From the NCBI GenBank assembly GCA_023130215.1, contig JAGMAN010000043.1:1-8677 (forward strand): 8,677 bases of DNA. Reading direction: 5' to 3'. The translations under genes were made by a program, and so were the position numbers. The notes under the pieces were generated by a model that saw nothing but the letters and a program-made list of their open reading frames with translations, did no database searches and had not been told where the DNA came from. The stretch comes from a bacterium (GTDB lineage: Bacteria; NPL-UPA2; JAGMAN01). Position 1 is the stretch's first letter; every line of letters starts with the position of its first letter. Shown one piece after another: positions 1,002 to 4,978 of the stretch.

Positions 1002-1721
1002 CTAACTTGCTTTCTCCATCTCTTCTAATATCTTGTTGGCTGCCTTTAATGGATCAGCCGCTTGAAGAATTGGTCTTCCTACCACTAAGAAATTAGCTCC
1101 CGACTGTACGGCTTCGCCAGGAGTCATTGTCCTCCGCTGGTCGTCTTTCCCTGCCCAGTCTGGTCTTATGCCCGGGGTTAAGATAATAAAGTCTTGTCCA
1201 CACGCCTTTCGGATAATCCCAATCTCCTTGGGGGAAGCGACAACCCCGTCCAGGCCAGCCTTTTTAGCCAGGCTTGCTAAATGGGCTATCTCATCTTCCA
1301 TATTCCTTCCAATTCCCATTTCTCTCCCCAGCATCTTTTGGTCAATACTGGTCAAAATGGTTACTCCTAAGATAATAGGTCTCCTTACCCCCAGCTCCTC
1401 GGCCATCTTCCGGGTTGCCTCTACAGTCATAGCCATCATTTCGTAACCGCCCATGGCATGCACATTAAACATATAGACACCCAGACGCGTGGCCATCCTC
1501 CCGGCATTGGCTACTGTATTAGGGATGTCATGGTACTTGGCGTCTAAAAAAACATTGGCTCCGGCCTCTTGGACAAGACGGATGATTTCCGGACCCTCCC
1601 GGGTGAAAAGCTGGAGCCCCACCTTAAAAATACTAATAGATCCTTTCAGTTGATTGACCACTCTCAAAGCTTCATCCCGGCCATCCACATCCAGAGCAAG
1701 AATTAATTTATCTTTAACCAT
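1002..1721 (-). CDS. pyrF: Orotidine 5'-phosphate decarboxylase (PyrF)
   Basis: Decarboxylates OMP to UMP, the last step of the pathway; cytosolic TIM-barrel homodimer. At 239 residues the length is normal. The sequence has LILALDV (D11), FKVGLQLF (K33) and the catalytic tetrad motif LDAKYHDIPNT with D60, K62 and D65. The phosphate-binding segments TPGIRP (182-187) and VVGRPI (from about 213) are also present. The ATG at 1721 has only a poor, too-close AAGG upstream. Unlike the other pyr genes, pyrF is preceded by a 141-base A+T-rich gap, because the TcmP/SPL insertion separates it from pyrD. It may therefore depend on read-through from pyrD or on a promoter in that gap. The stop TAG lies just before pyrE. 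Confidence 0.96.
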   Translation of the reverse strand: MVKDKLILALDVDGRDEALRVVNQLKGSISIFKVGLQLFTREGPEIIRLVQEAGANVFLDAKYHDIPNTVANAGRMATRLGVYMFNVHAMGGYEMMAMTVEATRKMAEELGVRRPIILGVTILTSIDQKMLGREMGIGRNMEDEIAHLASLAKKAGLDGVVASPKEIGIIRKACGQDFIILTPGIRPDWAGKDDQRRTMTPGEAVQSGANFLVVGRPILQAADPLKAANKILEEMEKAS

Positions 1722-1862
1722 AGCCTTTGCGAAAATAAAACGCCATCTTCAAATTTATATAATCCCTTATATTGCAATAAGTTATAAGCAATAAACCTGC
1801 CCTAAATTTTTTATTATCATCCCTCTATGAAAATAAATCTACCTCCAGCTTAACACAATAGA
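1722..1862. other. A+T-rich intergenic gap upstream of pyrF
   Basis: This 141-base spacer between the TcmP/SPL gene and pyrF is clearly richer in A and T than the pyr genes. On the minus strand it has a GGAGG with no well-placed start codon after it. It also has a weak promoter-like pair, TTGTGT, 17 bases, then TATTTT. No hairpin with a T-run and no RNA gene is evident. It could hold a secondary promoter for pyrF-pyrE-yicC or simply be the edge of the inserted block. Confidence 0.4.
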
Positions 1863-3893
1863 TTACCAGATACAATTACATTTTATCTCTCTATAATCCA
1901 TGCCTAATTTGTGCCACATCGCCTTAGTTTCTTTACAAAGCGCTATTTTATCATACTTATGTTTTTTCTTTAGATAACTGATGATGTCCAAATACATCTT
2001 TAGACGTGTTGTAAAATCTACCTTTTTGCCCCAACTTGAACTCTCTTTTAAATATTTTTTCCAAGAATTATCTTTAGTACCGTTAAGCGTGCTTTGCAAA
2101 CCTCTTAATGAGCCGAAAGTTATCCTTTCCGGGATAAAATTCAAAAAAATCAAATCGATTAGCTCCTTATAACAGCCTTGCCAGTTTTCTATTGGAACCA
2201 GCGGGTCTATCCTTATTCTAATTTCATAATTCTCCTTGCTTAGCTTCTTTGCCGCTTCAATTCTGTTTACGACCCCTGGCGCTCCTTTTTCCCATTTCTC
2301 TGCTACAGGGATAGCATTTAAACTAAAACTTACAATAACTTGGTCGTGAGGGTTTATCTCTAAAAGATTTTTGATTCTGTCCGATTTTGTGACAAATAGC
2401 ACTTTGTGCTTTTTTCGTCTTTCAAACATTGGAATTATGAATTTAGAGAAAGCGGATGTGCCATTTTCATACATAAGGGAATCAGCGATTTCACCCGTAT
2501 TTAGAATCTCCGGCTCATCCACTTTCTCAAGAAATTCCTCAACATGCAATCTTGTCTTATCATAATCCTTAACTTTAAATCCGGGCAGGATCTTACCATT
2601 ATGAAATCTAAAAGTTCCCTTTAAGTAACACCACGCGCAGTTATAAGGACACCCATAAGCCCATTTAAGTTCAAGAAAATGAGGGCAGATTACATCGGTA
2701 AGCTTCTTAGGCAAAGGAGTTTTATCAAAGCGCGTAATAATGGAACCATCGTTAACATGACTTACTAATAATCTTTTTGTCTCATCAATAAGATTGTATT
2801 CCTTATAATTTATTTTTACCTTCTTGTTAATAATAACTGGTACTTCCAGTAAAGTATTTTCATATTTGTGAGAGGTAGACTCTTTCAAAAGTAGAGAATC
2901 TGAGTTGTGTTTAGGAAAAGTCAAAAATGGATTATGTTTTTGCCTCGGATTCTCGATCTTTTCAGCACCAATATTTTTTAGTACTTTTTCTAAATCTTTA
3001 GCAAGATAGTCTGTTTCTTGCAAAACAAAACCTAAAACTTCATTATATTCAATAAATTTCTTCCTTTTATATTTACTGAAAATTTCTTTTTGAAAAGTTT
3101 GAAAATCTACTTCTGCAAATAGTGAAGGCTCAAAGTATCTTCTACTTTGTTCACTAAACATTACGTCTTTCATTATTTTAAATCCTGTTATATTTTTCGT
3201 AGCATATACTAAGTAATAAAAAGTCCTATTCTTCTTAGGAAATTTATTCCTAAAATCCCAAACAAAAGCACCTGTTTGTTTAATCTGCTCTTTGTATAGC
3301 TTTATCAAATCTTTTTCTTTCTTGGCTTTTTTGTAATCTGATGTGCCGAATAGTTTGGTTATAGTGCTTTCAACTTTCGGTGCTTTAAGCCACCTTTGAA
3401 TTGCATTATATTGGAAGTTTATAAGAATTTCTTTATGAGGCAAATTCAATATAGCTTCTATTTTATCAAAACCCACTCCCGAAAATCCTTCGGGATCAAT
3501 GAAAAAGAATGCTGGGGATTTGTTGATTTTCTTTAATATAGTGTCTATATAGGTTAAAAATTCACCCCTGTGCTTCCGAATATCCAATTTTTCTTCAGAT
3601 TGTTTGAGCGAATTTTCTAAAATGTTGTATCGTTTTGAATCTCTTTCAATACAAATACAATGAAGTTTGCATGTAGGCTTTTGGTATTTAAGCAAAATGT
3701 TAGCAGCAATAACTGGTGATCCCATTTCGCCAGTTTTATATTTACCTGTTCCGGCAAAAGCATCTACATAATAAGCATCTTTAACCCAAGGGCGGTTTGA
3801 AATAATTTTTACCCAAGGCTCCAAATAATTTTCAAAAATACTATGCTTAGAAACGGTTTGGATTCCTTTTTGTTGAAACAAATCCTTTTTCAA
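1863..3893 (-). CDS. Fused TcmP-like (three-Cys-motif partner) and SPL-like radical SAM protein
   Basis: A 676-residue protein with two domains. Residues 1-340 resemble TcmP: KHSIFENYLEPW near the start, a Rossmann-type motif YYVDAFAGTGKY (41-52) followed by GSPVIAAN, and FFFIDPEGF (129-137), like motif IV of SAM-dependent methyltransferases. A probable winged-helix-like stretch runs from about 277 to 330. Residues 350-676 resemble spore photoproduct lyase: the radical SAM cluster motif GCPYNCAWCYL gives CxxxCxxC at C415, C419 and C422, followed by KVLFVTKSDRI, VIVSFSLNA, NRIEAAKKL and a tail with ALCKET and CNC. In other genomes TcmP is a partner of a separate radical-SAM-like three-Cys protein; here the pair is one chain. 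The TTG start has AGAGGG (3899-3904) five bases upstream and overlaps the stop of the HsdS remnant (TTGA). Composition suggests horizontal origin. Substrate unknown; nucleic acid modification or repair is my inference. Confidence 0.8.
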   Translation of the reverse strand: MKKDLFQQKGIQTVSKHSIFENYLEPWVKIISNRPWVKDAYYVDAFAGTGKYKTGEMGSPVIAANILLKYQKPTCKLHCICIERDSKRYNILENSLKQSEEKLDIRKHRGEFLTYIDTILKKINKSPAFFFIDPEGFSGVGFDKIEAILNLPHKEILINFQYNAIQRWLKAPKVESTITKLFGTSDYKKAKKEKDLIKLYKEQIKQTGAFVWDFRNKFPKKNRTFYYLVYATKNITGFKIMKDVMFSEQSRRYFEPSLFAEVDFQTFQKEIFSKYKRKKFIEYNEVLGFVLQETDYLAKDLEKVLKNIGAEKIENPRQKHNPFLTFPKHNSDSLLLKESTSHKYENTLLEVPVIINKKVKINYKEYNLIDETKRLLVSHVNDGSIITRFDKTPLPKKLTDVICPHFLELKWAYGCPYNCAWCYLKGTFRFHNGKILPGFKVKDYDKTRLHVEEFLEKVDEPEILNTGEIADSLMYENGTSAFSKFIIPMFERRKKHKVLFVTKSDRIKNLLEINPHDQVIVSFSLNAIPVAEKWEKGAPGVVNRIEAAKKLSKENYEIRIRIDPLVPIENWQGCYKELIDLIFLNFIPERITFGSLRGLQSTLNGTKDNSWKKYLKESSSWGKKVDFTTRLKMYLDIISYLKKKHKYDKIALCKETKAMWHKLGMDYREIKCNCIW

Positions 3894-4048
3894 TTTGTCC
3901 CTCTCGAAATCATCTTTTCGACTTTTTGTTTAGCTTCTTCTAAAAGTCCTTTTGCCTTTTTGCGTGCTTCGTGAGATTGGCAAATGAGTAAGGCAATTTT
4001 TTGTTGGGTAGATTTTTGAGCTTCGATTACTTTATTTTTAAGTTCTAT
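3890..4048 (-). pseudogene. C-terminal remnant of a type I restriction specificity subunit (HsdS)
   Basis: Directly after the pyrD stop, in the same frame, 52 codons remain open and end in TGA at 3892-3890. They encode a charged coiled-coil tail with QQKIALLI, QSHEARKKAKGLLEEAK and QKVEKMIS. This matches the C-terminal helix typical of HsdS proteins (I/V-x-ES-x-x-x-RK-x-x-LLEEAK-x-x-VE), which pairs the two target-recognition halves in type I restriction-modification. There is no start codon and no target-recognition domain, so it is a 3' fragment, not a gene. Its stop overlaps the TTG start of the TcmP/SPL gene. It suggests that the inserted block was excised from a restriction-modification locus. 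The assignment rests on recognising the tail motif over about 50 residues. Confidence 0.65.
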
Positions 4049-4978
4049 CTACTTTTTCCATCTCGCTCCATAATCTCTCAACTTATTCACATCCCGGATT
4101 TTGTTTTTGACCAGATACTCCTCAATTCCCCGGGAAATTTCTAAGGCTGCGCTGGGATTGACGAAATTAACTGTTCCCACTGCTACCGCCGTAGCCCCGG
4201 CAAGGAGAAACTCAATTGCGTCCTCAGCGGTCATAATTCCACCCATCCCGATAATGGGCAGCTTCACCATGTTGGCCACCTCCCAGACCATTCTGAGAGC
4301 AACGGGCTTGATGGCTGGCCCGGACAATCCACCAGTGACGTTAGCTAAGCTGGGTTTGCGCCGCTCAATATCAACGGCCATTCCTAAAGGAGTATTTATT
4401 AGAGACACTGCATCGCCTCCGCCATCCTCAGCCGCCTGGGCAATGGCAGTTATATCGGTGACATTTGGGGTTAATTTGATGATAAGGGGGAGCTTGGTAA
4501 CTTTCCTGACCTTGCTCACTAATCGGCGCACAGTCCCCGTTTCCCTTCCAAACTCCATTCCCCCTTTTTCAACATTTGGGCAGGAGACATTGACCTCCAG
4601 GCCGGACACTGCCTCCACTTTGTCTAAACGTTCAGATATATGGACATACTCCTCTTCCTTTTCTCCACAGATGTTAACGATAATCGGTGTGTTGAATCTC
4701 TGGAGAAAAGGCAGCTTCTCCTTTATGAAAATCTCCAGGCCGACATTCTCTAAGCCAATGGAATTGAGCAGGCCGGAAGAAGTCTCTACAATCCGCGGTG
4801 GAGGATTTCCCTTGCGAGGCTGGACAGTAATGCCTTTGGTGACAATTGCCCCCAACTGGTTCAAGTTGACTAATGGCTCGTATTCTTCTCCGTAACCAAA
4901 AGTTCCAGAGGCAACCATGACCGGGCTGCGCATCTTTATCCCAGCCACCTTCACTGAAAGATTTACCTTCGGTTCCAC
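4049..4978 (-). CDS. pyrD: Dihydroorotate dehydrogenase B, catalytic FMN subunit (PyrD, class 1B)
   Basis: Oxidises dihydroorotate to orotate on FMN; with PyrK it forms the cytosolic class 1B enzyme that passes electrons to NAD+. The 309-residue protein shows ASGTFGYGEEY (23-33), TKGI with K48, NSIGLENVG (72-80), the catalytic-cysteine motif NVSCPNV with C133, and IIKLTPNVTDI. It also has the FMN-site segments SLINTPLG (N195), IGMGGI (243-248) and AVAVGT. A class 1 Cys, not the class 2 Ser, fits the adjacent pyrK. The start is GTG at 4978, overlapping the pyrK end by 16 bases; the ribosome binding site is weak, consistent with translational coupling. The C-terminus looks complete (RDYGARWKK), so the inserted block begins right after the TAG stop without damaging the gene. 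Confidence 0.95.
   Translation of the reverse strand: MEPKVNLSVKVAGIKMRSPVMVASGTFGYGEEYEPLVNLNQLGAIVTKGITVQPRKGNPPPRIVETSSGLLNSIGLENVGLEIFIKEKLPFLQRFNTPIIVNICGEKEEEYVHISERLDKVEAVSGLEVNVSCPNVEKGGMEFGRETGTVRRLVSKVRKVTKLPLIIKLTPNVTDITAIAQAAEDGGGDAVSLINTPLGMAVDIERRKPSLANVTGGLSGPAIKPVALRMVWEVANMVKLPIIGMGGIMTAEDAIEFLLAGATAVAVGTVNFVNPSAALEISRGIEEYLVKNKIRDVNKLRDYGARWKK

Follow-up and report, generated by a model that had tools for sequence, protein, structure and literature searches.

A TcmP domain fused to an SPL-like radical SAM domain: a candidate two-step nucleic-acid modification enzyme

The window, i.e., the whole 8,677-nucleotide stretch of DNA analyzed here, carries a gene whose product joins a TcmP domain to a radical SAM domain related to spore photoproduct lyase (SPL). 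The best reading of this fusion is a mobile two-step nucleic-acid hypermodification enzyme working in restriction or anti-restriction, and we give this reading about an even chance of being correct. The open frame lies on the minus strand and runs from a TTG at 3893 to a stop at 1863, i.e., 676 codons; the longest open frame after shuffling of the stretch was 169 codons (200 shuffles, six frames). As put forward in the original prediction, a TcmP half and a radical SAM half share this single frame, and all the named motifs are found in place: DAFAGTG at residue 44, FFFIDPEGF at 129, Cys415, Cys419, and Cys422, VLFVTK at 498, FSLNA at 523, and RIEAAKKL at 544. The gene and its parts are as follows.

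1863–3893, minus strand: fused TcmP–SPL-like radical SAM gene (676 aa, TTG start)
3159–3893, minus strand: TcmP, predicted RlmJ-like Rossmann methyltransferase, residues 1–245 (TIGR04474, invariant columns, RlmJ fold, hhalign)
2916–3122, minus strand: winged-helix domain, residues 258–326 (weak here, clear in L017; helices and strands in the model)
2823–2915, minus strand: low-confidence linker between the halves, residues 327–357 (pLDDT <50 for 330–355)
1866–2822, minus strand: SPL-like radical SAM half, residues 358–676 (Pfam SPL, profile match, fold)
2628–2651, minus strand: C-x3-C-x2-C, predicted [4Fe-4S]/SAM site, residues 415–422 (motif)
2490–2492, minus strand: Glu468, in the column of the SPL hydrogen donor Cys140/141 (alignment to SplB)
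1872–1937, minus strand: Cys653 and Cys672-Asn-Cys674, residues 653–674, with Cys403 a possible second metal or cluster site (conserved in the clade)

The source, a small uncultured bacterium, is represented by a draft metagenome assembly of 136 contigs, which could favor an assembly artifact or a chance join of two adjacent genes. However, complete fusions of the same order and length come from other assemblies, namely five further genomes, with 48–71% identity to the window gene: L002 (a WOR-3 genome, 71%), L003 (a planctomycete, 57%), L005 (49%), L013 (a Coatesbacteria genome, 49%), and L017 (G063, 48%). The L002 fusion also starts with TTG, at the same residue. Furthermore, dN/dS is about 0.07–0.10 for both halves in comparison to L002 and L006, with dS high and near saturation; both halves are under strong protein-level constraint, which likewise speaks against an artifact. 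Because five fused homologs exist, an artifactual or chance join was rejected, and we consider it next to impossible.

The survey of fused versus split forms proposed at the outset shows, in addition to the recurrent fusion, split pairs in both gene orders. The three-Cys partner, fused to TcmP in the window, is a separate neighboring gene in L008, L012, L067, and L101; TcmP precedes the SPL-like gene in L008, L009, L019, L021, and L040 and follows it in L012, L067, and L101. A second TcmP–radical SAM fusion, of 584–601 residues, is present in three genomes (L035:1453–3228, plus strand; L121:533–2287, minus strand; L122:289–2094, minus strand). The NCBIfam family nearest to its radical SAM branch is rSAM_PA0069/Rv2578c, and the PA0069/Rv2578c-like pair has a split form in L020 and L103. 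Since the first fusion is real and recurrent, and a separate second fusion family exists, physical coupling between TcmP and its radical SAM partner can, as predicted, be soundly inferred.

The TcmP assignment is firm: the NCBIfam model TIGR04474 matches residues 12–245 with 176.2 bits (E = 1.2e-51), far above its cut-off of 53. This half contains the motifs K16-H17, D44-x-F-A-G-x-G, G58-S-P60, and D133-P134. In an alignment of 26 highly divergent TcmPs, Lys16, Tyr23, Asp44, Asp133, and Pro134 are invariant, and the residues of the SAM-binding motif are invariant or nearly so. The best fold match of the modeled half is RlmJ (Z 18.3, RMSD 2.9, 207 residues), whereas methyltransferases outside the RlmJ family score Z ≤ 14.8. 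A PF04378 search among the relatives found no true RlmJ; therefore, E. coli and plasmid records served as the source of RlmJ sequences. The profiles of 26 TcmPs and seven RlmJs were aligned by hhalign over Lys-His, DxxAGxGxY, GSP, and Asp-Pro with a probability of 95.9 (E = 6e-9), in comparison to a probability of 0.3 for the control, TcmP against RsmJ.

RlmJ is a 23S rRNA adenine-N6 methyltransferase (m6A2030) and acts on RNA. Residues ~4–256 of the fusion share its fold (PDB 7P8Q, 4BLV), and the TcmP half has the Lys-His before the first strand, DxxAGxGxY, GSP, and the catalytic Asp-Pro in common with it. In RlmJ, Tyr4, His6, Lys18, and Asp164 are required (PMC3814359). Lys18 and Asp164 correspond to Lys16 and Asp133 of TcmP in the profile alignment, but Tyr4 and His6 are absent, with Lys2 and Asp4 standing there by an ungapped count from Lys16. 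In addition, DPPY is replaced by DPEG at residues 133–136 (DPxG in TcmPs), the inserted subdomain of RlmJ is missing from the TcmP alignment, and the TcmP half has an added winged helix. The invariance or near-invariance of the catalytic Lys, Asp, and SAM-motif residues suggests that catalysis is kept in TcmP. Yet, as RlmJ acts on RNA and Tyr4, His6, and DPPY are not kept, both methyl transfer and its target atom are only predicted. The TcmP half is accordingly described here as a predicted RlmJ-like methyltransferase, which is a new lead on TcmP.

The winged helix that follows is weakly matched in the window gene (GMT-wHTH, 14 bits, below the cut-off) but clear in the fused homolog L017 (41.7 bits, above the cut-off). 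The AlphaFold2 model of the fusion has a mean pLDDT of 89.7 and a pTM of 0.59, with a floppy linker at residues 330–355. The individual halves of this model can be trusted, but their mutual placement is uncertain, as the pTM value indicates.

For the radical SAM half, the predicted SPL membership is confirmed by Pfam SPL (PF20903), which matches residues 411–582 with 55.4 bits (gathering cut-off 27), and CxxxCxxC is present. The general radical SAM model PF04055 stays below its cut-off (16.9 versus 29.5 bits); nonetheless, the fold and CxxxCxxC are there. A profile match links this half to 4fhg (6e-27), and among solved structures, spore photoproduct lyase is nearest to it in fold (Z 23.8); RlmN, a radical SAM RNA enzyme, also matches the fold. 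CxxxCxxC is invariant in the alignment of SPL-like halves. Cys403 and Cys653 are present in nearly all SPL-like relatives, and the C-terminal C-x-C (Cys672, Cys674) is found in 27 of the 48 SPL-like rows. Judging from this conservation, the four cysteines may hold a second cluster.

TcmP is ordinarily paired with DUF5131 (phage Gp37/Gp68), and the PADLOC A components corresponding to TcmP are matched by the fusion (PDC-M30A, 95 bits; PDC-M41A, 50 bits). The comparison of the radical SAM half with DUF5131 proposed at the outset gave no match: neither DUF5131 nor PDC-M30B/M41B was found in the fusion in Pfam and PADLOC searches. A model of DUF5131 built from eight relatives (pLDDT 80) has spore photoproduct lyase as its best solved fold (Z 13.2, next group 11.0), although Foldseek gives an E-value of only 1e-3 for this match. 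The three-Cys partner DUF5131 thus probably belongs to the SPL-like radical SAM proteins, with altered cysteine spacing: DUF5131 has C-x6-C-x2-C, whereas the SPL-type branch of the window has C-x3-C-x2-C. The SPL-type partner also differs in its extra cysteines (C403/C653/CxC) and in being fused to TcmP. In both kinds of pair, TcmP is the A component and the partner is a three-Cys radical SAM protein. Given its predicted SPL-likeness, DUF5131 makes the SPL-type partner a relative of the known one and not a foreign protein. The proposal of the SPL superfamily as a source of TcmP partners therefore holds insofar as the SPL-like domain is fused to TcmP or encoded next door, but calling it a new kind of partner requires caution. 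The window fusion is a variant of the known candidate TcmP pair (PADLOC PDC-M30/PDC-M41). PADLOC has no model for the SPL-type partner, no family for the fused protein was found in PHROGs, and literature searches on TcmP, three-Cys-motif, DUF5131, and GMT-wHTH returned no functional study among the papers searched.

The two halves have quite different histories. Between the fused L003 and the split L008, which come from different phyla, the SPL halves are 84% identical, whereas the TcmPs are 20% identical, and SPL-half identity exceeds TcmP identity in most locus pairs compared. The two sets of identities are weakly correlated (Mantel r 0.35, p 0.003, relatedness not removed). The SPL half of the window is 81% identical to the SPL protein of L006. 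Both L006 and L007 have an SPL gene without an adjoining TcmP, and the L006 genome encodes another TcmP elsewhere, with an SPL-like neighbor of its own. In the tree of SPL halves, fused, split, and lone forms interleave, and well-supported branches force at least three changes; no single tidy fusion event therefore emerged. By these comparisons, conservation lies in the SPL half, and TcmP is the variable, faster-evolving part. Such a pattern resembles a common catalytic unit (SPL) combined with changeable recognition units (TcmP).

The gene lies within a pyr operon, where the following features surround it.

1722–4051: inserted low-GC segment between pyrD and pyrF (sister species G001 without it; GC)
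4049–4978, minus strand: pyrD (dihydroorotate dehydrogenase, named by sequence), insert flank, upstream in the operon
1002–1721, minus strand: pyrF (orotidine 5'-phosphate decarboxylase, named by sequence), downstream flank
3890–4045, minus strand: 3' tail of a type I specificity subunit (HsdS; alignment to the HsdS of L007)

The pyrD and pyrF genes of the sister species G001 overlap with nothing between them, whereas a distance of 2.3 kb separates them in the window; the GC content of the insert is 27–37% versus 45–52% in the surrounding DNA. The HsdS tail is located upstream of the TTG of the fusion, in another frame, and its stop overlaps the fusion start by 4 bp (TTGA). Of this tail, 40 residues align with the L007 HsdS at about 60% identity (score 116 versus ≤50 in 500 shuffles); as a short query, it gave no match in plasmid records. 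The insert thus carries the scar of a restriction operon. We infer that the fusion module moves horizontally and that it entered the pyr operon with the HsdS tail. Elsewhere in this operon, a UPF0150/HicB-like gene is situated between pyrC and pyrK (window:5867–6190, minus strand), and pyrE, which separates pyrF from the YicC-like gene in the window, is missing from this place in the sister species (L069:3122–3175).

Several relatives are found among restriction or DISARM genes. In L104, TcmP and the SPL-like gene belong to one operon (L104:887–11665) with DrmD (E = 2e-199), DrmMI, a UvrD-like helicase, and a Ser/Thr kinase, in a DISARM-like arrangement. The L105 operon (L105:1372–9149) contains TcmP, the SPL-like gene, a type III Mod, and a ResIII protein of 1017 residues with a weak TnsA-like nuclease stretch. 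A type IIG enzyme is encoded 25 bp upstream of the split pair in L008, the L013 fusion adjoins type II methyltransferases and an EcoO109I-like nuclease, a type I HsdM is nearby in L065, and a TdeIII system stands beside another TcmP–radical SAM pair in L103. Split SPL-type pairs are thus operon members or immediate neighbors in loci of DISARM class 1 and of type III and type IIG restriction (L104, L105, and L008), although the libraries searched do not list TcmP or SPL-like proteins as parts of these systems. For the anti-phage helicase Hna of S. meliloti, a putative transcription unit is listed that also includes a TcmP gene (PMC12445080). No defense gene was found within reach in L002, L003, L005, L102, and L106. 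A pooled neighbor scan matched 188 PADLOC families with 80 proteins from 14 loci, versus 27 families with 117 proteins from 13 control loci (ParB-linked SPL loci). Restriction–modification or DISARM matches were present in about 5 of the 14 loci and at least one type I system in the 13 control loci, both being small sets. This enrichment is suggestive and amounts to support, not proof, as the loci are few and no significance is claimed. The defensive context suspected for the fusion is supported by these neighbors.

A profile scan of viral sequences yielded five viral loci with relatives. An initial scan of viral sequences revealed nothing related to the protein as a whole, and phage and plasmid records contained only single halves with <35% identity and no whole fusion. 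On viral contigs L064–L066 (L064:7983–11261), two SPL-like paralogs, about 60% and about 40% identical to the clade of the window, and a TcmP lie beside major head and portal-like genes. On viral contig L067, ParB-like, SPL-like, and TcmP genes are consecutive (L067:7204–9895), and lone SPL-family genes also seem often to have a ParB-like neighbor (L024, L028, L051, and L060). Further neighbors include GHKL ATPase and B12-binding radical SAM genes directly before the SPL-like gene and TcmP in L101 (2903–8795) and a QueH-like gene that immediately follows the SPL-like half in the related genomes L004 (1562–2137) and L010 (988–1554). In three Chloroflexota, a methylthioadenosine-phosphorylase-like gene directly follows the SPL-like gene (L008:8977–9846, L009, and L011). 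Such enzymes can clear 5'-deoxyadenosine, but this neighborhood may be lineage synteny only.

Taken as a two-step modification enzyme, the fusion would, by sequence and predicted fold, present two distinct SAM-using active sites on one polypeptide. The winged helix and the methyltransferase cleft of TcmP would bind the nucleic-acid target, and TcmP would methylate it by SN2 transfer, most likely at the amino group of an adenine or at another exocyclic atom of similar kind. The SPL-like half would then cleave SAM to a 5'-deoxyadenosyl radical and modify the same target further, with the fusion and its linker tethering the halves and keeping both steps together. If the target is DNA, as the neighbors suggest, the modification could serve as restriction self-marking in cells and as anti-restriction in viruses. 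A more specific form of this proposal is DNA hypermodification to an undescribed base, e.g., a radical-altered N6-methyladenine, which would be the self mark of DISARM-like or restriction systems and a viral anti-restriction device, with TcmP as interchangeable recognition and SPL as chemistry; this form is a tentative possibility, well short of an even chance.

Three other explanations have to be considered, from more to less likely: that the substrate is RNA, that TcmP only confers specificity, and that the enzyme carries out repair. An RNA hairpin in tRNA or rRNA, as in the case of the RlmJ substrate, might be methylated by TcmP and changed a second time by the radical SAM half. An rRNA methyltransferase is indeed the solved structure nearest in fold to the TcmP half, RlmN matches the fold of the other half, and radical SAM enzymes such as RlmN and MiaB act on RNA. 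In that case, the defense neighbors would point to an immune or anti-immune role that targets translation, or simply to residence in islands. However, a gene for housekeeping RNA modification would not be expected to be so patchily distributed or to sit in an insertion that the sister species lacks, the split relatives are embedded in DNA-targeting operons, and winged helices are commoner on DNA; we regard an RNA substrate as rather unlikely. A slightly lower standing is assigned to TcmP as an inactive SAM-binding or nucleic-acid-binding specificity subunit, with the radical SAM step as the sole chemistry. DPxG in place of DPPY and the missing RlmJ residues Tyr4 and His6 are in line with this idea, as are the conserved SPL halves beside TcmPs that diverge and swap as specificity subunits do and the SPL genes without a TcmP neighbor (L006 and L007). 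Against it stand the (nearly) invariant SAM-motif residues and catalytic Lys and Asp of the 26 TcmPs.

DNA lesion repair, in which the SPL-like half would reverse a base lesion with TcmP guiding or assisting, is suggested by SPL, which among families of known reaction is the closest in both fold and sequence. The fusion and spore photoproduct lyase SplB (PDB 4FHC and others) share the radical SAM core, the fold, and CxxxCxxC, and Tyr98, Lys174, and Ser195 of SplB are kept as Tyr423, Lys503, and Ser524. Yet, Cys140/141 is the essential hydrogen donor of SPL (PMC3742179), and the SplB Cys140 column holds Cys in 0 of 47 aligned SPL-like rows and mostly Glu, with Glu468 in the window gene. Thymine-dimer repair is unlikely because Glu468 stands at this essential position, and SplB-type repair by the fusion was rejected. 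Moreover, Tyr96 of SplB is Trp421 in the fusion, the fusion half has a different N-terminal part and extra C-terminal cysteines, and TIGR04070, the equivalog model of true spore photoproduct lyase, is far from reached (71.6 bits versus a cut-off of 400). Repair is therefore highly improbable. Of the two-step modification or repair enzyme originally envisaged, modification remains plausible in view of the RlmJ-like fold, the retained Lys and Asp, and the radical SAM core, but repair in the SPL sense does not stand.

TcmP and DUF5131 are widespread gene names without known function, and the fusion shows their joint action. The predicted folds name each half, an RlmJ-like methyltransferase and an SPL-like radical SAM domain, and point out residues to mutate; the new leads are an RlmJ-like TcmP and partners of both types that are SPL-like. 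This makes an orphan pair accessible to experiment as a two-step nucleic acid modification that may act in restriction and in viral counter-defense.
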